DNA from: an uncultured Mycoplasmatota bacterium
Lineage (GTDB): Bacteria; Bacillota_I; Bacilli_A; RF39; UBA660
Assembly: GCA_947649365.1 (NCBI GenBank)
Contig: CANSRH010000001.1
Location: forward strand, 1-64,000
DNA length: 64,000 bases
Direction: 5' to 3'
In this document: positions 23,938 to 35,624 of the stretch, in pieces
Numbering within the stretch: the stretch's first letter is position 1
Layout: the number at the start of each line of letters is the position of its first letter
Notes under the pieces: model-generated
The model's input: only the letters and a program-made list of their open reading frames with translations
Told to the model about the DNA's origin: nothing
Databases searched by the model: none
Made by a program: the position numbers and the translations under genes

Positions 23938-24483
23938 TTATTTTTTTATTGTGCAATTTGCTTCTTTACAAACAATCTTTTTTTCTACTACTTTTTTCTT
24001 ATCAGGACATTCTAAATAAATTTTCAAATCAAATTCTTCTGTAGCAATTTTGGTAACAATTATATAACTATTTTCTTGATTGCAAGTTTTCTCTTGATTG
24101 TTTTTGATTTCATCAATTAATTTTATTTCTATCATTTCTTTTATAACTAGAGAAACCGAATCTCCAATATTTTTGGGTAAAGGATTGCTTTTATAATATT
24201 CTGCGGTTGCTTTGGTTATTCTTTCAATATTTTTATTAAAGGTTTCGTTTTCATTTTCTTGGTATTTATTTAATCTAGAAACAACAAAGATTAAAAGTAA
24301 CATAACAAAAAACAATATTCCTAATTTTATTCCTAATCTTTTCCATTCTATCTTTTTCAAAATAGAATCGTTGCTTATTTCAAACTTAGGAAACTTTCTT
24401 TCTATGTTTTTCTTTTGGTATTTATTTTTTCTATTTTTTTCTTTTCTTATATTTTTCTTTTTTTCTTCATACATATTTATCAC
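23938..24483 (-). CDS. hypothetical single-TM protein with basic cytoplasmic N-terminus
   Basis: ORF track; TM LGILFFVMLLLIFVVS. Confidence 0.6.
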   Translation of the reverse strand: MINMYEEKKKNIRKEKNRKNKYQKKNIERKFPKFEISNDSILKKIEWKRLGIKLGILFFVMLLLIFVVSRLNKYQENENETFNKNIERITKATAEYYKSNPLPKNIGDSVSLVIKEMIEIKLIDEIKNNQEKTCNQENSYIIVTKIATEEFDLKIYLECPDKKKVVEKKIVCKEANCTIKK

Positions 24484-24576
24484 TCTTTTTTGATTTTTTA
24501 TTATACATTATCTTACAAATATTGTCAGCATAATTTTATGGTATTTTCCCTTCTTTTATGCTAGAATACTATGTAC

Positions 24577-24946
24577 GGGGCAGTAAATGGTTTCGACAAT
24601 TATTACTAGATAGGATGGCAAGTGGTAGGCATACCTAAAATGCGTTCAATAATAAATAACAAAACTAAAAAAGAAGCTGCTTTCAGCTTCGCAACTCCTG
24701 TTTTTGCCTAATTAAAGGTCTAGGGAGACTTCTACTTACTTTTTCTTATAGGGTAAGTTAGGGGTTCATACATATAAGATAGTCAATTGAGATTGTTTAA
24801 GTTTCTTTTGATGAAAATTCATTAAACTAATTATATAATAGGTACGCTATAGCCAGTTATATAATGAATTTTAAATCTAGCTAAACTTGTAGAAATTGTA
24901 TCATAGGATATTTTGGACAGGGGTTCAACTCCCCTCTGCTCCACCA
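24577..24946 (+). ncRNA. ssrA: tmRNA
   Basis: GGGGCAG...CTGCTCCACCA acceptor, TTCAACTC T-arm, tag frame ...NNKTKKEAAFSFATPVFA stop. Confidence 0.93.
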
Positions 24947-25045
24947 TTGAGGTTAAAAGTCGCACTTTAGCGATTTACTTATATAAAGTTCATAGTATTT
25001 GATATTATGGGCTTTTTTCATTGTCTAAAGGAGTGATGAATTTTT

Positions 25046-25339
25046 ATGAAAACGACCATAGAAAATTTAGAATTTCCTTGTGAAATTAAGAAAAAACTAA
25101 AAATGAAAGTTAGTATGGGAAACTTAGAAGTTGATTTTATTGATGGGCATTTGATTAAATTTGATAAAACGAATCTAAGTGTTCAAGAACCACATAAGAT
25201 TATTGTTAGTAATAAAAAGAATACTCTTGTTGCTTTACTTTATGAAAATGAAGATAAAATATATCTTCCTAGTGAAAATGCAATTATATCAATAACTAAA
25301 TATATCAGTATATTAAATGCAATGAATAAAATGTATTAA
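25046..25339 (+). CDS. hypothetical protein
   Basis: ORF track. Confidence 0.55.
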   Translation: MKTTIENLEFPCEIKKKLKMKVSMGNLEVDFIDGHLIKFDKTNLSVQEPHKIIVSNKKNTLVALLYENEDKIYLPSENAIISITKYISILNAMNKMY

Positions 25340-25350
25340 AAATAGATTAA

Positions 25351-25460
25351 ATTTGTACTGAAAATGTACTATTTTTATACTAAATTTATACTAGGAATTG
25401 TATGAAATTTGTATTATTTATTGCATTGTAATTAGACTATTCCCTATGATACTATGGTAG
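25351..25460 (+). repeat. phased repeat module 1: 7 units of about 11 bp (TGTACT/TATACT/TGTAT)
   Basis: GTA/ATA/GCA positions 25355, 25366, 25377, 25388, 25400, 25411, 25423. Confidence 0.8.
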
Positions 25461-25486
25461 TGTATTGAAAATTTATCGATACTTAT

Positions 25487-25602
25487 AGAATTGCAACTTT
25501 TTTGCATGCTTTTTGCAACAATTTTGCAAGAAATTTGCAACTTTCTTGCCTAGACATTGCAAGAAACAAGTGTTATTATGATAAAGTATTGAAAAAAGTA
25601 TC
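25487..25602 (+). repeat. phased repeat module 2: 7 units of exactly 11 bp (TTGCAA), then TATTATGATA and an inverted repeat
   Basis: G of TTGC at 25493, 25504, 25515, 25526, 25537, 25548, 25559. Confidence 0.9.
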
Positions 25603-25616
25603 AATACAAGAGTATT

Positions 25617-25725
25617 TTTATTTCTCAAATTCTTCTCAAAAATTACACGAAATTTACTCATTTTTTACCTAGACTTTTCTTAGGTGTGGTGCTAAACTTG
25701 GTATGATAGAAAATAATTCTATCAA
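25617..25725 (+). repeat. phased repeat module 3: 6-7 units of 11 bp (TCTCA/ACTCA), then TATGATA and an inverted repeat
   Basis: C of CTCA-like motif at 25624, 25635, 25646, 25657, 25668, 25679, (25692). Confidence 0.8.
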
Positions 25726-25810
25726 ATATGTACTGAATAACTAACATTATATTTTTGGTTACCTAACACAAGGGAATTTTCTCTTGTGTTTTTTCGTTTT
25801 AAAAAATAAA

Positions 25811-27568
25811 AGAAAGGAACGTGATAAATTGAAAGAAGAAAACGAAATCATTTGTGGTCTTTATCCTCGTGTTTCAACTGAGGATCAAAGTAGATTTGGT
25901 CATAGTTTAGATGAACAAGAAGATAGACTACGAAAACTATGTGAATTTAAAGGTTATAAAATATATAAAGTATATCGTGAAGAAGGAGTTTCAGCAAAAA
26001 ATACGAATCGACCAAAATTTAAAGAAATGATACAAGATATGAAAGATGGTAAAATAAACAAAATTATTGTTTATAAACTAGATAGACTTACTCGTTCTAT
26101 TAAAGACTTGGAAACAATTTGTACTCTTTTAGAGGACTATCATTGTGATTTAGAAAGTGTTGCTGAAGAAATCAATACTGGAAATGCAAATGGTAAATTC
26201 TTTATTCGTATGCTTACGATACTTGCTCAACTTGAAATTGAAAGAACAAGCGAAAGAACAAAGTTTGGGCTTGTAGGAGCTGCTAAAAAGGGTCATATTT
26301 CGGGGAAACCAGCACTTGGATATACTAAAAAAGGAAAAAGCAAAAAATTAGTGATTAATGACTTAGAGTCAGAAGTAGTAAAAAGAATTTTCAATATGTA
26401 TTTAGAGGGTTCATCCGTATGTTATATATGTGAGAAATTTAATGAAGAAAATGTTTTAAATCGACATTGGGCAACTACTACTGTCGATAAGATATTATCC
26501 AATAAAATTTATATTGGTAATATAGAACATGGGAAAAGAGATAAAAAGAATTCTCAAATATTTGAAAATGTTGTACCAACTATTATTGATAAAACTACAT
26601 TTGAATGTGTACAAAAGAGAAAAGAAAAGAATCTCAAAAACTTCAAAAGAAAAAGAACTTATATTTTTATGCAAAAGATACTTTGCCCTAAATGTCATAA
26701 AATTATGGGTGGAGAATCTAGTACAAGTGGAACTGGAGATAAACATATTTATTACAAATGTAATTGTTGTAAGAAAAGAATTAGTGAGAAAAGAATAGAA
26801 AAAGAACTCTTAAAATTTTTAAATGATATGTTAGATTTTTTTCTTATCGTAGATAATTCTTTTAAGCCATCAATGTGTAGAGATATAGAACAAGAAATAA
26901 CAAAATATGAAAAAATGAAAGCTGAAATAAACGATAAGATAACAAAAATAAAAAAAGAATTTATGGATGGAGAAATTGCTGCCAAAGTTTTTGAAAAAGA
27001 ACTCCATTATTTAGAAAAGGAAATCAAAAATATAGAACTTAAAATTATTGAATTAAAGGACTTGAAACAAAGCAATGAACATAAACAAGATGTCGAATTA
27101 TTTTTTAATGTAAAAGAAATAGAAAAGTTAAAATTGAAATCAGAGTATGTGAAAGAACATAATTTATGGAATCAGTTGAGCCAAGAACAAAAACAATATA
27201 TCATAAACAAATATATTGATGAAATAGAAATTAGTAGCAATAATAACCACAATGTTTCTATTTTAAATATTATCTTCAATAAAAATGAGATTGAAAATAT
27301 TGGTCTTATGTTTAGAAATGATTGTTTTGATATGATAGTAAATGTAGAGGATCGAGATATTATTTTATCCCATGTAAAAAGTGATGAAGAAACAAAAAGT
27401 TATATAAGTACATTAAGAAATTTTTATAACATCAAAGAAACTACGATACAAACTGAATTATTTGATATAGCAAAATTTAATTCAAATGAAGTTATACAAA
27501 TAATTCCACAAGAAAAGAAATCTAAATTTGAAAAAAATAAATTTACAATACTACAAATTGAGGTATAG
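25811..27568 (+). CDS. large serine recombinase of element B; start probably the TTG at 25829 region
   Basis: LYPRVSTEDQSRFGHSLDEQ, YKLDRLTRS, recombinase and zinc-ribbon domains. Confidence 0.9.
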   Translation, partial: RKERDKLKEENEIICGLYPRVSTEDQSRFGHSLDEQEDRLRKLCEFKGYKIYKVYREEGVSAKNTNRPKFKEMIQDMKDGKINKIIVYKLDRLTRSIKDLETICTLLEDYHCDLESVAEEINTGNANGKFFIRMLTILAQLEIERTSERTKFGLVGAAKKGHISGKPALGYTKKGKSKKLVINDLESEVVKRIFNMYLEGSSVCYICEKFNEENVLNRHWATTTVDKILSNKIYIGNIEHGKRDKKNSQIFENVVPTIIDKTTFECVQKRKEKNLKNFKRKRTYIFMQKILCPKCHKIMGGESSTSGTGDKHIYYKCNCCKKRISEKRIEKELLKFLNDMLDFFLIVDNSFKPSMCRDIEQEITKYEKMKAEINDKITKIKKEFMDGEIAAKVFEKELHYLEKEIKNIELKIIELKDLKQSNEHKQDVELFFNVKEIEKLKLKSEYVKEHNLWNQLSQEQKQYIINKYIDEIEISSNNNHNVSILNIIFNKNEIENIGLMFRNDCFDMIVNVEDRDIILSHVKSDEETKSYISTLRNFYNIKETTIQTELFDIAKFNSNEVIQIIPQEKKSKFEKNKFTILQIEV

Positions 27569-27607
27569 AAATGTATCTCTTTTTTATTGGCAGAAAGGGG
27601 GCGATTT

Positions 27608-27778
27608 ATGAATTACTTTTTTAAATTTTTACTACCACAACTATATGATTATTTTAAAGATGAAACAAAAGTATTAGAGTTTATTCCACAAGTAATAGAA
27701 CAAAAGTATCAAAACGCATTACTTGAATATAAAGAAAATGAAAGAAAGGAAGTAAAAAATGAAACAACTAACCAATGA
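27608..27778 (+). CDS. small hypothetical protein
   Basis: MNYFFKFLLPQLYDYF...; RBS AGAAAGGGGGCG. Confidence 0.5.
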   Translation: MNYFFKFLLPQLYDYFKDETKVLEFIPQVIEQKYQNALLEYKENERKEVKNETTNQ

Positions 27779-28007
27779 TGAAATAATTAAAAATTGTGTA
27801 GAGACAATTAACCAATATAGAGTATTAGATTATCTAAAAAAGAATTTAAATATATTTTCATTTGAATTATTTTTATATGATAAAGATACAATCAAAGTGA
27901 TAGATTGTGAAAATAAAGAAGCCTATTTTAAATTTGATGAAGAGAAAAAAGAAGTGCTATTTTTAGAGGAAGAAATAGAAAAAAATGATGACTGTGAGTT
28001 GTGTTAA
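27759..28007 (+). CDS. small acidic hypothetical protein
   Basis: ORF overlapping the previous gene; GAAAGGAAG RBS. Confidence 0.5.
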   Translation: MKQLTNDEIIKNCVETINQYRVLDYLKKNLNIFSFELFLYDKDTIKVIDCENKEAYFKFDEEKKEVLFLEEEIEKNDDCELC

Positions 28008-28229
28008 TCATAGTTTTTTGTTTACTTTTTTTCAAAAAAAGTAATAACAAACGTGGCACGTTTCTGTTTGCTTTAGCAAATGAAAGTGGCGACAGTTTGT
28101 ATAAAAAATTTTGAGAGATTTCACTTACGAAGTTTGTGGAATCACGAATAATTTTCATAGATAAAATTGAAAGTGGTACTTTCAACTTTATCAAAGACTT
28201 ATGTAGTTTTATTCCATTGCTTTTGCTTT

Positions 28230-28325
28230 GGGATATTACGAAATAAGTCAAACGGTTTCTAAGGTGGTAAACCTTAGCTCCCATGTTTTGATGCTTGCGT
28301 CAAAACATATAGGGAGTTAGAAATT
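28230..28325 (+). other. oriT: MobV-type oriT with predicted nic between 28316 and 28317
   Basis: ATGTTTTGA-tgcttgcg-TCAAAACAT inverted repeat directly followed by ATAGGGAG/TTAG, as in the pMV158-type nic region (TAGTGTG/TTA); upstream of mob gene. Confidence 0.78.
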
Positions 28326-28353
28326 TTGTCTTGGTTTCCTACCCACTCTTAGA

Positions 28354-29781
28354 GTGTTTATGAAACCTCAAAATGATATTAGAAAGGAAGTGATATTTAT
28401 ACAAAAATTAGCCTATTCATTTCATATTGGAAATGATAAAAATAAAAGTAAAAGGTCAAGAAAAAATATAAAAAATGGAGTTGTTACAGACAAAGTTTTT
28501 AATAATAATGCAATTCAAAATGCACAACAATTATCAAAAGTAAATAAACATAATTTACGAAAATATGATGATAAGGTTGAACTAATTGAGATTATATATG
28601 GAACAAATAATTTGTATGAAGATGTAAAAAAATTATATGTTCAAGAATTTGATGAGGCACGAAAAGAATATAACGAAAAACAAACACGCAACGATAGAAA
28701 AATCGAAGATTATTTTTCTCATATTTCTAGCAATGCTAAAAATGATTTGGCTTGTGAGATTATTATTGAACTTGGAAATATGGAATTTTGGAAAGATAAA
28801 GAAGATTCCTATAAAAGAAAAATGACAAAGGTTTTTAAAGAACAAATACAAGACTTAGAAAAAATCGTGCCATCTTTTAAAGTGGCAAATGCTGTTGTAC
28901 ATTATGATGAAGCAAGTCCACATTTGCATATTGTTGGTGTTCCTGTTAAAGATGGAAATAAAAATGGTATGAAAAAACAAGTGGGAAAATCTACAATATT
29001 CACAAAAGAATCGTTAAGAGAAATACAAGATACTCTAAGAATATATTGTAAAGAATCTTTTAACAAAATCTATAATACTAATATTGAATTGTTAGAAAAA
29101 ATTGAAGGAAGAAATGAGGATATTCCTATAAAAAATATGAATAAACAATATACCTATTTGAAAGAACATGCCGATCGAAATCGTGAAAGATTAGAACAAG
29201 TAAATATTCAAACAAAAGATACTCTTTTAAAATCAAATGAGGTCAAAGAAATTATTTCTAATTTGAAACCTACTAAAATTTCCAAAAATAATTATGTTAT
29301 TAGTGAAGAAGATAAAAATATTATTTATGATTTTGCTAAAAAGGTTGATATCAATGTTGAAGAGATAAAAAATATTGATGACTTAAATTCTCTTATGGAC
29401 GACTTTGAATATAACTTTCAAAATTATACAAATAGCATTGATGATTTGCAATTACAATTAAAAGAAAAAAATCAAAGAATTAAAACTCTTGAGAAACAAA
29501 ATATCACAAAGCAAAATAAAATTGCTGAACAAAGAGAGGAAAATTCTTATTTAAAAGAAGAGATTTCTAGATTAAATAAGTTACTTAAAGCATGGGAAGA
29601 ATTTTGGAAAAAGATTTTAGAATTTCTACAAGATAAATTTTTTAGTTCTAAAAAAGAAGATAAAATCTATGAACAAGTTATTGATGAGTTAATTGATAGA
29701 AATATATTAAATAAAGATGATATTGAAGAAATTCAAAATGGTTATTATTCAAATGAAAAAGATGATTTTGAACTAAAATAA
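28354..29781 (+). CDS. mobV: MobV/Mob_Pre family relaxase
   Basis: AVVHYDEASPHLHIVGVPV HxDExxPHxH motif, coiled-coil C-terminus. Confidence 0.88.
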   Translation: MFMKPQNDIRKEVIFIQKLAYSFHIGNDKNKSKRSRKNIKNGVVTDKVFNNNAIQNAQQLSKVNKHNLRKYDDKVELIEIIYGTNNLYEDVKKLYVQEFDEARKEYNEKQTRNDRKIEDYFSHISSNAKNDLACEIIIELGNMEFWKDKEDSYKRKMTKVFKEQIQDLEKIVPSFKVANAVVHYDEASPHLHIVGVPVKDGNKNGMKKQVGKSTIFTKESLREIQDTLRIYCKESFNKIYNTNIELLEKIEGRNEDIPIKNMNKQYTYLKEHADRNRERLEQVNIQTKDTLLKSNEVKEIISNLKPTKISKNNYVISEEDKNIIYDFAKKVDINVEEIKNIDDLNSLMDDFEYNFQNYTNSIDDLQLQLKEKNQRIKTLEKQNITKQNKIAEQREENSYLKEEISRLNKLLKAWEEFWKKILEFLQDKFFSSKKEDKIYEQVIDELIDRNILNKDDIEEIQNGYYSNEKDDFELK

Positions 29782-29800
29782 AAACACTTTTTAAGGTGCT

Positions 29801-30112
29801 TCAATTCTTAATAAAATCATCTAAACTTTTATCAAGTATAATTGATAATTTCACAACTTTCTCAAGAGGAATCATTTTAGTGCTATCACTATCACTTTCG
29901 AATCGCTTATAATGATTATGATTATAGTCTAATAAAGCCGCGATATTTTCACTTGAAAAAGGATTTATAGTATTTTGTGAGTTTTGACTTTTAAATTCGT
30001 TATATCTTTGTAAACGAAATTTTTTGATATTTTTACAAATGGTTATATAAAGTTCTTCTTTATCAACTACTGAAATCATATTTTGTAATTTTTCAAAATC
30101 ATAAATTGCCAT
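29801..30112 (-). CDS. XRE-like HTH regulator
   Basis: SENIAALLDYNHNHYKRFESDSDSTKMIPLEKVVKLSIILDKSLDDFI. Confidence 0.65.
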   Translation of the reverse strand: MAIYDFEKLQNMISVVDKEELYITICKNIKKFRLQRYNEFKSQNSQNTINPFSSENIAALLDYNHNHYKRFESDSDSTKMIPLEKVVKLSIILDKSLDDFIKN

Positions 30113-30245
30113 TTTCTCACCTCTTATTACAATTATCCCATTTAAGGAATAATAAAATAGCCACATATTCACGCATTTTTATATTGAGTTTATCTGCAAT
30201 GATGTTATAATTAAAATGGCACGAAAAAAGGAATAATAAATATTC

Positions 30246-30560
30246 CTAGCGTCTTGGTATGCGATTGTTTTCTACTTTTGGTCTTTCAGTAAATAATTGT
30301 TCTAGTGAAACACCTAAGGTATCAGCAATATGACCAATATAATCTATTCTCGTATTTCTTCTAGCATTTTCAAGATTTGATACATAAGTAGGAGTTGTCC
30401 CAAGTTCATCTGCAAAATCTTCTTGAGACCAATTCTTTTTTAAACGAAAGTATATGATGTTATTTGCTAAAATTTTACGAGCAAGATTTTCGTATTTAAT
30501 AAACATCACATCCTTTTCCTTTAAACTTACTAATATTGTAATAAGTTTATTTTGTTTCAA
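30246..30560 (-). CDS. XRE family transcriptional regulator
   Basis: IYFRLKKNWSQEDFADELGTTPTYVSNLENARRNTRIDYIGHIADTLGVSLEQLF. Confidence 0.88.
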   Translation of the reverse strand: MKQNKLITILVSLKEKDVMFIKYENLARKILANNIIYFRLKKNWSQEDFADELGTTPTYVSNLENARRNTRIDYIGHIADTLGVSLEQLFTERPKVENNRIPRR

Positions 30561-30660
30561 CCATACTTACTATGTAGCAAGTTACAAAGAAATATACAAA
30601 AAAAGAAGGAAAAAAATAGTGCTAGAAAGTGAATTTTAACAGAAAAAGGGGCGAAATATT

Positions 30661-30954
30661 ATGAAGAAAAAACAAGAACTTACATCTGAGGAAGCGATGG
30701 CACAGGTATTTGCTACCTCTTATAAATTTGTATTTGAAAGTACAAGAAGTTTTATTGAACTTTATGAAAATAAATATAAATTTTTACAACGAGAAATGAT
30801 AGAACATGAAGAAAAAGAGCCATTAAAAATATTTAAAAAGACTCACAAAAATTGGGAATTAAAAAAAGAAGAACTAAATATTGAACTCGAGAAAACTTTT
30901 AATATTTTAATGGAGGAATATACTGATTTTGTCAATTTAACAGAATTATTATAA
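30661..30954 (+). CDS. hypothetical protein
   Basis: ORF track; preceded by AAAAAGGGGCG RBS. Confidence 0.5.
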   Translation: MKKKQELTSEEAMAQVFATSYKFVFESTRSFIELYENKYKFLQREMIEHEEKEPLKIFKKTHKNWELKKEELNIELEKTFNILMEEYTDFVNLTELL

Positions 30955-30991
30955 ATAATAAAAGTAGTAACTAAAAATTCACTTTCGTTAA

Positions 30992-31035
30992 GGGTTGATT
31001 GAACATTAGTTGTTTAATCGACCCTGTTTTTTATT
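30992..31035 (+). terminator. Rho-independent terminator
   Basis: AGGGTTGATTGAAC...GTTTAATCGACCCTGTTTTTT. Confidence 0.75.
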
Positions 31036-31081
31036 TGTTCCTCTTTAAATAAAACTTTTAATACAAGAAATCAAAAATATA

Positions 31082-31258
31082 TTGTATTAAAAGACAAATA
31101 ACGATATAATAAATATATCAAATGCAAGTGAACTTATTTTTTTGCTGATGAGTGCAAAACCCCATCAGTAAACGCACCATAGTGATACCAAACTCGAACT
31201 TTTCGAGTAGCAATAGAAACACACAATAGAAAACGACTTGTCAAAAAGCCGTTTTTAT
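31082..31258 (+). ncRNA. candidate structured small RNA with promoter TTGTAT-17-TATAAT
   Basis: CTGATG...CATCAG, ACTCGAA..TTCGAGT and AAACGaCTT..AAGcCGTTTTT hairpins; no ORF. Confidence 0.45.
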
Positions 31259-31462: not shown

Positions 31463-31653
31463 ATTCTCGCCTCCCTTCTGTTAAGAAGATTGGCTCCACC
31501 CAACTTATTAAATGTTCCTAAAACAATTATAGCAAACATTTATTCTTAATACGATTATTTTTTTAATTAAATTATGACAATTTAATTACATGATAAAATT
31601 GAGAGTAATGAAAAATATTTCATAAAGTAAAAAAATAGGCTTTTTTCCTATTT

Positions 31654-31956
31654 TTATAAAGTATCTAAATCATCAAAGATGATATTTTCGTCGGTTGTTT
31701 TCGTTTCTACTGTTGGTATTGGAATGTTACTATTTTCTATTTCTATGTTGTTATTGTTCATAGTAGGTTCTACCATATTAGTTATCTCTTGAATCATTAG
31801 TGTCTCTTCTGCTTTTTCTTGCTTGGCGATTTCCTCTTTTTTATTTGGTCTTTCACTTGTATCTACTAAATATCCAATTAATGCAAATATTAAAATAAGT
31901 GAAATAATTAAAAACCAAAAGTAGTTATTTACTAAAAAATCGATAAATGTTTGCAC
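31654..31956 (-). CDS. hypothetical single-TM protein
   Basis: ORF track. Confidence 0.55.
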   Translation of the reverse strand: MQTFIDFLVNNYFWFLIISLILIFALIGYLVDTSERPNKKEEIAKQEKAEETLMIQEITNMVEPTMNNNNIEIENSNIPIPTVETKTTDENIIFDDLDTL

Positions 31957-31996
31957 TTGCTTCCTCCTTATTTAAATTTATGTTTTTTTCATGTAT

Positions 31997-33064
31997 TTAT
32001 GAAATGGTTAACGTTTGTCCCATTGGCTGAATTTGAATATAGGTATTCCCGTCATTTACAATTAATTTTGTTCCATTTTTTAATTTATAATTTGTTTTTC
32101 CAGTTCTTGTGGATTTATTCCAAATGATTGGTATTGCATAGCCTTCTGATATAAAATATCCTTCTCCCGTTCCAACGTTATTTAACTCTTGTCTTCCTTT
32201 CACATCTCCACTAATGGTTGTATTTTTTACCTGATAGGTTATGATATTTTTGGCAGTATACTGAATGTTTTTTTCATAATCCATGTGGGGTGTGTTATTT
32301 ACACTTCGTTTGTAATTTTTGTTTTCTGTATCGTATTCGTAAGAAGTATTGGCACTTCCAGAGTATTTGATTAAAACTTGATTTGCAGGAATTGCTCCTT
32401 CTATTTCACTGATATTTAGAGAATCTATACTATAATTTAATAAAGGCTTTTCTTGGGTTGTTTTTCGATATCCAAATTTATCAATTGCCTGATTTATCAA
32501 AGCAATACTTGAAAATCCTGTGTGTTCTGTTGCTACTTTTAATGATTTGTCTTTCCAAAAGTAGTTTCCATCTACTAATCCATTGATATTGTTGATATCT
32601 AATTTCTTTATATCCTCTTTTGCATATTCGCTATATCCCCAATGGGTAATTATTGCATCATTTTCTAAAGCATAATCTAAAAAATAATGTCTTGCACTTC
32701 GAATACTTCCTATTTTTTCCGTGGTTGCGTCTTTGTAAAGAGCCATCATTCTTGTAATTCCACCTTCTACAATCATTTCGTACACTAGGTAGGCTTCTTG
32801 TAATCCAGCATGATATTTCCTTGCTTGATTGTGATTGTTGATTATAACAGCTATGCTTCTAGAGTTACTATTAGGATCTAAAATCTTTAACTTTGGTGTT
32901 TCTATCTCTGGTGTAAAAGTTTCTTCTTTTTCTGGGATTTCTTCTATTGGTAAAAATTTAGGAAACAGAAGACATAACCCTACTACAAGTAAACAACTTA
33001 TACTTACTCCTAAGAGTATTTTTGTTTTTTTCTTCATCTTTCGTCTTGTGTTCATTTTTACCAC
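31997..33064 (-). CDS. DUF3048 domain-containing protein (YerB-like)
   Basis: RSIAVIINNHNQARKYHAGLQEAYLVYEMIVEGGITRMMALY; GSIRSARHYF. Confidence 0.88.
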   Translation of the reverse strand: MVKMNTRRKMKKKTKILLGVSISCLLVVGLCLLFPKFLPIEEIPEKEETFTPEIETPKLKILDPNSNSRSIAVIINNHNQARKYHAGLQEAYLVYEMIVEGGITRMMALYKDATTEKIGSIRSARHYFLDYALENDAIITHWGYSEYAKEDIKKLDINNINGLVDGNYFWKDKSLKVATEHTGFSSIALINQAIDKFGYRKTTQEKPLLNYSIDSLNISEIEGAIPANQVLIKYSGSANTSYEYDTENKNYKRSVNNTPHMDYEKNIQYTAKNIITYQVKNTTISGDVKGRQELNNVGTGEGYFISEGYAIPIIWNKSTRTGKTNYKLKNGTKLIVNDGNTYIQIQPMGQTLTIS

Positions 33065-33082
33065 CTATATTCTTTTTACTAA

Positions 33083-33514
33083 TCAATACATGTATTTTCT
33101 AGCCTCTTTTGCTTCTTCTTTTTTCTTTATACTGGCTCGTTTGTCATACATTTTCTTACCCTTTGCTACTCCAATTAATAGCTTGGCTTTTCCATGGTGT
33201 AAATACATTTTTAATGGAACAATACTATATCCTTCTTTGGTCGTTGCTTCTTTTAGTTTTTTGATTTCTTTTTTGTGTAGTAAAAGTTTTCTCGTTCTTC
33301 GCTCTTCGTGGTTAAATTGATTTCCTTCTTCGTATTTTGCTATATACATATTTAGTAAAAATGCTTCGCCATTTTTTATCACACAATAACTATCTTTTAA
33401 TTGTGCAGAACCTTTTCTAACACTTTTAATTTCTGTTCCTACAAGTTCAATTCCTGCTTCTAGCTCATTTTCAATAAAGTAATCAAAGTAGGCTTTTTTA
33501 TTTTTTATTTCCAT
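33083..33514 (-). CDS. smpB: SsrA-binding protein
   Basis: [39 protein letters not shown]. Confidence 0.95.
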
Positions 33515-35624
33515 CTTGTTTTTCTTCTCTTTCTTCTTTTGCTATTTCAAAATCTATTTGAGCCGTTGCTTTGGATGCCGCAGTTACTTTAATTTTCACT
33601 TTGTCTCCAATACGATATTCTATTTTGGTATTACTTCCAATCATGGCTAATTTTTCTGGAATGTAATTGTAAAAATCTCCTTTTAATGTACTTACATGAA
33701 CAAGTCCTTCTACCATGTTGGGAAGTTCTACAAAGAAACCAAAATTCGTAACTGTAGTTATAATTCCTTCATGGATTTCCCCAATATGAGTTTCCATATA
33801 TTCGGCCATTTTCATGTCTAATACATCTCGTTCTGCATTAACGCTTCCTACTTCTTTCATACTCGAGTGTTCAGCAATTTCTACAAGGGCACTATCATAG
33901 TAGCTAATGGTAGACATGGATAAATCTTTTTCAACTAAATATTTTTTTAGTAAACGATGGACAGTAAGGTCTGGAAATCTTCTAATCGGACTTGTGAAAT
34001 GAGTATACGCTTTACTTGCTAGACCAAAATGTCCGATGTTGTCTTTACTATATTCGGCTTTTTTCATACTTCGTAGTAACATACTGGATAGAATACTAAA
34101 TTCTTCTTTGTCTCCTAATTCTCGTAATAGTTTTTGCATGGAAATTGATGTTAAATCAGTGATTTTAGTTTGTAGTTCATAACCTAATAGTTTCACTAAA
34201 TTGACAAAATCATCGACTTTTTCATTGTTTGGAGTCCCATGAATACGATAAATAAATGGTAGATCCATATGGTAAATATGATTTGCTACTGTTTCATTGG
34301 CAGTTATCATAAAGTCTTCAATTAATTTTTCCCCATCTTCTCTTTCTCTTTTGATAATGTCTATTGCTCGTCCTTCTTCGTCTTGCACTACTTCTGCTTC
34401 GTCTAAATCAAAGTCAATGTATCCGCGTGATTCTTTTTCTTTTCTTAAGATATGAGCAAGTTCTTGCATTTCTTTTAACATGTTTACAAAAGATTCATAG
34501 CCTGGTGCTACAATCTCTCGCATGATGATGTCATTCACTGCTTCGTAAGTCATTTTCTTTTTGCTTTTGATATAGCTTGGAAAAATATCGTAACTTACTA
34601 CTTTTCCTTTTTTATCTATTTTCATGACACAACTCATTGTTAGACGAATGACTCCCTCGTTTAGTGAACATATCCCATTGGATAGTTTATGCGGTATCAT
34701 AGGGATAACTGTGTCCGCTAGATAACAAGAGGTTCCTCTTTCGTAAGCGGCATCCCCTAGTGCTGTGTTTTCTTTAACATAATGTGAAACATCGGCAATG
34801 TGAACCCCTAAAATATAAAAGTTTTCTTCTTTTTCTATACTGATGGCATCATCGATGTCTTTGGTGCGAGCCCCATCAATGGTCACTATTTCTTTTTCAG
34901 TTAAATCTGTACGTCCTATTAATTCTTTTGAATCTACTTCTGTCGGGATGTCTAGTAATTCTTTTTCTACTTCTTTTCCAAATTCTGTTTCAATCGCATA
35001 TTTGTAAGCGATTGATAAAATGTCTACTCCAGGATCGTCTTTGTGTCCTAGTATGCGAACAACTTCTGCTAGGTATTTTTTTGGCCCCAATTCTTTTTTT
35101 AGTCTTATGATTACTTTATGCCCAGGAACACAATTTTTAAAACTTTCTTTTTTGATTACAAGGTCAATGTCTTTTTTATCATCGTCTAAGTCAACGTACA
35201 TTTTGTTGTTTTTAACAATAATTTCTCCTACCATGTCATTGATTTCTCGCCGAACAATTTTTAAAACTTTTCCTTCTTTTTTTACTCCATTACGAATTAT
35301 TTCTGCTAGTACAATATCGTCATGAATGGCACCATTTAAGTTATCGCTTGCTATATACAAATCGTCTTCTTTTTCTAGTATGACAAAACCATATCCCTTT
35401 TTATTGACTGTTAGTCTGCCTAGTTTCATACTTGGACAATTTTTTAGTAAAATGTATTTTTCTTTTTTACTTTTGTAAACAATACATTCCTCTACTAATT
35501 CTTCTAATGCTGTAACGACTTCTTTGTATTCCTCCGCAGTTTTTAATTCTAATAAATCATTGATTTCTATTGCTTCTTTGGCTTCATATATATTTTCTAA
35601 TACTTTTTTTATGTCTTCTTTCAT
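33498..35624 (-). CDS. rnr: ribonuclease R
   Basis: [21 protein letters not shown]1 domain; HRLLKKYL. Confidence 0.95.

Follow-up and report, generated by a model that had tools for sequence, protein, structure and literature searches.

The DNA between a small gene, orf97, and a large serine recombinase gene carries three consecutive arrays of short direct repeats, which raises the question of what these arrays do and what might read them. To our knowledge, little is known about how large serine recombinases are controlled when they belong to mobilizable elements. We analyzed this locus within the window, i.e., the whole stretch of 64,000 nucleotides, and compared it with related elements in other genomes. 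In our view, there is about an even chance that the region serves to control the recombinase gene and is composed of tandem promoters with helically phased operator arrays, along which a putative sequence-specific binder would spread and probably repress transcription. All features described below lie on the plus strand unless the minus strand is indicated.

The mobile element and its genes

The element is inserted at the 3' end of a tmRNA gene (ssrA, 24577..24946), which was identified by Rfam (RF00023, 122.7 bits). ARAGORN gave no tmRNA at this position despite the Rfam score. Comparison with relatives lacking the element placed its right end at 31175..31179, where the CACCA core common to the tmRNA 3' end is found; CACCA is thus present at both ends. 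In a same-genus relative without the insert, the tmRNA CCA continues as GATACCAAGATCGAAC, like the window from about position 31180 (GATACCAAACTCGAAC), and in a second such relative the alignment begins at window position 31175. Based on these junctions, the element spans about 24947-31179 (6.2 kb). A terminator-like hairpin followed by a T run was read in the sequence at the left end (24988..25018; GTTCATAGTA..TATTATGGGC TTTTTT), and may act as an insulator of the element or provide the target RNA gene with a replacement terminator. A very similar hairpin precedes orf97 in cassettes located behind other tRNA genes. Besides, the order and orientation of the smpB and tmRNA blocks (23939-24946 and 31613-34556) differ from those in other genomes of the genus, which suggests a local inversion around the element.

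The first gene, orf97 (25046..25339, 97 aa), belongs to an uncharacterised family upstream of these serine recombinases. The family is widespread between tRNA or tmRNA genes and serine recombinase genes, and has invariant residues G34, N43 and P49 and the motif TNL-x(3)-EPH. No relative of orf97 was detected in Pfam, NCBIfam or PDB, or in the viral contigs, plasmids and phages searched, and its predicted fold (mean pLDDT 87.6) had no fold match at E<=0.001. We consider it a candidate directionality factor or regulator. The large serine recombinase gene (25829..27568, TTG start) encodes the Resolvase and Recombinase domains of Pfam (8.4e-38 and 4.9e-21, respectively). The arrays sit between orf97 and this gene, and the first-pass annotation of this DNA had likewise placed them upstream of a recombinase. 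In addition, the element carries a MobV/Mob_Pre relaxase gene (28354..29781; Pfam PF01076, 1.2e-15; NCBIfam MobV, 1.1e-8, below its cut-off), two small ORFs, and two genes on the minus strand, encoding XRE protein 1 (30246..30560; HTH_3 in Pfam) and XRE-like protein 2 (29801..30172). The latter had also been annotated as an XRE protein, but it matched no family, HTH or other, in Pfam or NCBIfam. The relaxase predicts that the element is mobilizable, and no conjugation genes were recognised in its ~6.2 kb. The Resolvase/Recombinase domains, a relaxase without conjugation genes, and a defined site with a short core repeat are the features of serine-recombinase IMEs.

Three helically phased arrays

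Autocorrelation of positions 25340-25735 gave a match rate of 0.434 at lag 11, compared with 0.311 in dinucleotide shuffles (z 5.5, 0/1000), with further peaks at 22 and 33. The lag-11 signal was also present in each module separately (z 3.7, 4.9 and 4.0 for modules 1, 2 and 3; 0/1000 in each case). When the whole 64-kb window was screened by phase-folding, the three arrays occupied ranks 1-3 (57.6, 44.5 and 42.2; next 37.5), and no non-11 period among periods 9 to 13 reached 50.

The module 1 array (25354..25427) contains the cores TGTACT/TATACT/TGTAT, starting at 25354, 25365, 25376, 25387, 25399, 25410 and 25422, with spacings of 11, 11, 11, 12, 11 and 12 bp. The module 2 array (25491..25561) consists of seven TTGCA units that extend through the -35 hexamer, with TTGC starting at 25491, 25502, 25513, 25524, 25535, 25546 and 25557. 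The module 3 array (25622..25687; TTCTCA/TACTCA/TACCTA) repeats at 11 bp, its successive cores being TTCTCA, TTCTCA, TACACG, TACTCA, TACCTA and TTCTTA. These results confirm the 11-bp periodicity that the first-pass annotation had noticed in three consecutive modules, which stands above shuffles and ranks highest in the window. Its details held in part. The period of about 11 bp is exact in module 2 but interrupted by two 12-bp steps in module 1; the TTGCAA units of module 2 do have exact spacing, but they had been placed 2 positions too high and only 5/7 read TTGCAA; and module 3 is indeed an 11-bp array, but its cores, given as TCTCA/ACTCA, are degenerate.

Further examination of 90 module-2 units from 18 arrays revealed an information content of 1.5-1.9 bits per position in the TTGCA core, compared with only 0.3-0.5 at positions 6-8 of the spacer; the units are not independent, since the arrays of related elements have common ancestry. 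Each unit has about 7 conserved and 4 variable bp, and the units run head-to-tail and overlap the -35. With this caveat of common ancestry, a near-invariant core with a varying spacer argues for sequence-specific recognition, with what would be one contact per helical turn.

Promoters, hairpins and a terminator

Each array is followed by a predicted promoter. In module 2, TAGACA-N17-TATTAT (25551..25579, -10 at 25574) has its TAGACA at 25551 in register within the array (TTGCC-TAGACA-TTGCA; TTGCCTAGACATTGCA register). In module 3, TAGACT-N17-TAAACT (25670..25698, -10 at 25693) is conserved in L005, L126, L076 and others. Across the aligned cassette arrays, TAGAC[A/T] in array register is followed by a -10-like hexamer at a distance of 16-17 bp in 19/19 cases, from which we read the TAGAC of modules 2 and 3 as a predicted -35 hexamer embedded in the last repeats. 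Repeats thus overlap or abut the -35, as in OmpR/PhoB-type direct-repeat promoters. The module 1 candidate (25426..25455, TTGTAA-N18-TACTAT) is the weakest of the three, with a poor -35; its layout recurs unchanged in G093. The number of promoter-like matches in the region (6) does not exceed that in shuffles (6.5), and the promoter calls are therefore based on conservation.

An inverted repeat lies at approximately +1 of each promoter: GTATTGA..TCGATAC in module 1 (25462..25482), GTATTGA..TCAATAC in module 2 (25586..25607) and GATAGAA..TTCTATC in module 3 (25705..25723). For the last of these, pairing is retained in 90.5% of cells across nine homologues, with two pairs changed on both sides, and 5-6/500 shuffles matched the observed paired cells and covariation score. 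The TAGAC, TATGATA and inverted repeats do occur where the first-pass annotation had put them, but they are not equivalent across modules: TAGAC at 25433 in module 1 is out of the -35 register held in modules 2 and 3, and TATGATA, which shares positions with the -10 of modules 1 and 2, is 3' of it in module 3.

An intrinsic terminator (25765..25796; one found, 0.2 expected) lies between the last promoter and the recombinase gene, whose TTG start follows about 40 nt further on. A terminator-like hairpin with a T run was found at the equivalent place in 37/44 cassettes, compared with 27/220 shuffles. This arrangement implies that the transcripts from all three predicted promoters would have to traverse the terminator before reaching the recombinase.

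Conservation and exchange of modules

The array region has matches in related elements (84-86% in G093 and G073, 68% in G245, and a partial match in G166). A scan of 85,488 species (GTDB) for the module-2 pattern TTGC-N7-TTGCCTAGACWTTGC returned 23 contigs, 22 of which carry an orf97-recombinase cassette; the remaining one is a chance cyanobacterial match. These 22 contigs are from MAGs labelled Tenericutes, Mollicutes, Bacilli, Bacillales, Clostridia or plain bacterium. orf97 lies 53-198 bp upstream of the array in 21 of them, and the 22nd begins at the contig start. A recombinase N-terminus is found <=1.2 kb downstream in 13/22, and the others end early or carry interrupted or diverged genes. 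No array matches were detected in the viral contigs or phages searched. Moreover, we scored 44 distinct intergenic stretches between orf97 and the recombinase, a set in which the sampling favoured module 2. Arrays with an 11-bp period are present in 17 and arrays with a 12-bp period in three, and no other period exceeded the threshold; 24 cassettes have no array and are evidently functional without one. The 11-bp phasing is thus kept upstream of related recombinases, which bears out the earlier suggestion of three related promoter-linked arrays with equal pitch and diverged core motifs.

Arrays and genes are not bound to each other. The TTGCA array also precedes recombinases only 37-40% identical to that of the window, and a recombinase with 79% identity (G093 C21) has 12-bp arrays of TTACAGA and ACAAYTAAA instead. 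In L126, L128 and L132, the module-2 array is joined to the module-3 core promoter and hairpin, and hybrid arrays are present in L014 and L076. Further array motifs include TAYCAG at 12 bp (L006), GTAC at 11 bp (L020) and TTGCCT at 11 bp (L104). The layout is both conserved and modular, and the arrays, being kept, lost or swapped between related elements of gut bacteria, look like exchangeable control switches. A fourth module (about 150 bp), comprising an ACAAYTAAA array of 12-bp period and CTGACA-N17-TAAAAT, occurs in L002 (1890-2080), L003 and L004 and is absent from the window. In two genomes, the array is intact but the recombinase gene is interrupted just past the catalytic domain, following about residue 155-157 (L052:15619-16146; L059:7587-8114). 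In L053 (14500-16779; G073:C14), an unrelated serine recombinase gene in opposite orientation abuts an interrupted array-bearing recombinase copy, with the junction at the catalytic-serine codon; apparently, one recombinase element was inserted into the recombinase gene of another.

Candidate readers of the arrays

The two XRE proteins, which the first-pass annotation had put forward for binding tests, could be ruled out as readers: L160, whose recombinase is 97% identical, keeps the three-module region and has neither XRE gene. Likewise, G409 carries the three-module region, and a search at E<=1e-5 gave no homologue of XRE1 there. Although orf97 and the recombinase are never missing, the identity of both falls to about 22-40% next to one and the same array, and the specificity is thus not explained by either of them alone. 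In particular, orf97 is unlikely to be the sole specificity factor, as TTGCA arrays are accompanied by orf97 proteins with an identity of only about 22-26%. Array-based exclusion between elements is unsupported, given that G042 has three cassettes with TTGCA-type arrays. Trans_reg_C proteins are encoded in 17/17 hosts searched (2-9 per genome; five in the host of the window), and none is linked to an array.

Models of control

In the mechanism that we favour, three sigma-A-type promoters would act in series, each having upstream of it 5-7 direct repeats that face the same side of the helix, with the -35 hexamer contained in the last repeats of the array. A putative sequence-specific DNA-binding protein, presumably not encoded among the cargo genes of the element, would spread head-to-tail and cover the -35, the most likely outcome being that the recombinase is silent while the element is integrated. 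Upon release (or, less likely, activation), transcription would start at the hairpin after each -10. As each array has its own core motif, each may be recognised by a separate reader, or by a common one with a different affinity, and the terminator would act as a second, RNA-level gate for all transcripts. Repression is favoured over its main rival, activation, because the promoters are near consensus and ideally spaced with the -35 inside the array, and because an integrated element should stay silent; hexamers that match at up to 10/12 positions with an ideal spacer are expected of a promoter that needs a block. More broadly, we tentatively suggest that such array-promoter cassettes, exchangeable and with many cores at an 11- or 12-bp pitch, could be read by an undescribed class of DNA-coating regulator with diversified specificities, controlling mobile-element recombinases in RF39-like bacteria.

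In the activating version, which we regard as rather less than probable, a host response regulator of the OmpR/PhoB type would bind the 11-bp repeats as tandem dimers over the -35 and switch the recombinase on by a host signal, with the modules answering different regulators. PhoB binds pho boxes in this manner, as tandem dimers on direct repeats overlapping the -35. The unit anatomy described above matches such sites, and the Trans_reg_C proteins of all 17 hosts supply possible regulators. The multi-repeat sites of ArcA likewise have two to five direct repeats with 11-bp spacing, but a repeat at 12-bp spacing was not protected (PMC3798270), and 12-bp arrays do occur among the cassettes. Moreover, TTGCA triplets were found in the window's own genome only at the array locus, leaving no host regulon visible there, and each genome with a listed 0-mismatch match has it within an orf97 cassette. 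The -35 and -10 are near consensus, unlike those of most activator-dependent promoters, and there is no response regulator among the element genes tested. With 12-bp arrays present and no sites visible elsewhere in the host, OmpR/PhoB regulators are disfavoured as the full answer.

It is unlikely that control resides chiefly in the RNA, with the +1 hairpin and the pre-recombinase terminator being functional (by attenuation or put-like processive antitermination) and the arrays only tuning transcription. The retained pairing and two-sided changes of the module-3 hairpin and the recurrence of the terminator among cassettes speak for it. However, the pairing was counted over nine related sequences only, DNA palindromes bound by a repressor would covary too, and core conservation and array swapping would be left unexplained.

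Still less probable is an effect of DNA shape that needs no dedicated regulator, the phased A/T tracts either bending the promoter or acting as a UP element for the alpha subunit of RNA polymerase. A T-rich tract is present in each 11-bp unit, and the bend predicted from wedge parameters reaches the 95th percentile in module 1 (8/500 shuffles as high) and the 99th in L104. Nevertheless, modules 2 and 3 are at only the 77th and 56th percentiles (130/500 and 288/500 shuffles as high), 3/4 of the 12-bp arrays do not exceed the 60th, and the TTGCA core is conserved far beyond what curvature needs. Curvature as a feature common to the modules, another proposal of the first-pass annotation, is thus ruled out for modules 2 and 3.

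The parallel drawn there with R1 parC-type centromeres also fared poorly. R1 ParR requires two 11-bp repeats, and the repeats of parC, located upstream of parM, have a family-specific sequence (PMC9426499); yet no ParM/ParR or TubZ/TubR gene was found among the element ORFs tested, and the arrays are in register with -35/-10 hexamers and 400-700 bp from the insertion junction, which makes a partition centromere (parC/tubC type) or an accessory recombination site outside the promoter very improbable. Finally, a neutral relic, left when replication slippage duplicated AT-rich intergenic DNA in tandem, would fit a recent 22-bp duplication within the array of G250 (L098) and the many cassettes without arrays, but is scarcely credible given the invariant core and variable spacers across 18 arrays, the fixed register with the promoter, and one architecture built from unrelated motifs.

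Comparison with known systems

As a serine-recombinase IME, the element resembles Tn4451, which has one serine recombinase (TndX), a mobilization gene and site-specific insertion. TndX works without an RDF (PMC5704250). The element differs from Tn4451 in having orf97 and a multi-array control region, for which no matching report was found in the literature searched, mostly papers outside subscription. Several diversified and exchangeable operator arrays are compactly arranged here on the tandem promoters of one recombinase, and natural chimeras already separate array from core promoter, which makes the system well suited to a comparative search for the regulator. The system also allows one to ask why specificity diversifies, e.g., by tracking different hosts or evading the repressor of a resident element.

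With OmpR/PhoB-type promoters (pho box, ArcA), the arrays share head-to-tail repeats at 11 bp centre-to-centre, with a short core and an AT-rich spacer over the -35, a likeness of sequence format. They differ from them in the number of repeats (5-7), in the succession of three promoters that each have another core, in the existence of sister arrays with a 12-bp pitch, and in a distribution confined to one mobile cassette. Like phased A-tract promoters and UP elements, they have T-tracts at each helical turn upstream of the -35, but the bend of modules 2 and 3 is unremarkable and the cores are invariant. The combination of a 5' hairpin with a terminator ahead of a mobile-element gene recalls termination control in HK022 put and Tn916; this likeness is one of general layout. 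The put RNA has a two-stem fold that modifies RNA polymerase, and the 5' hairpins seen in the cassettes are single ones only. As in R1 parC/ParR, 11-bp direct-repeat arrays lie near a promoter and the repeat sequence varies between families; unlike that system, which relies on ParM and ParR, each array here is tied to a recombinase promoter.
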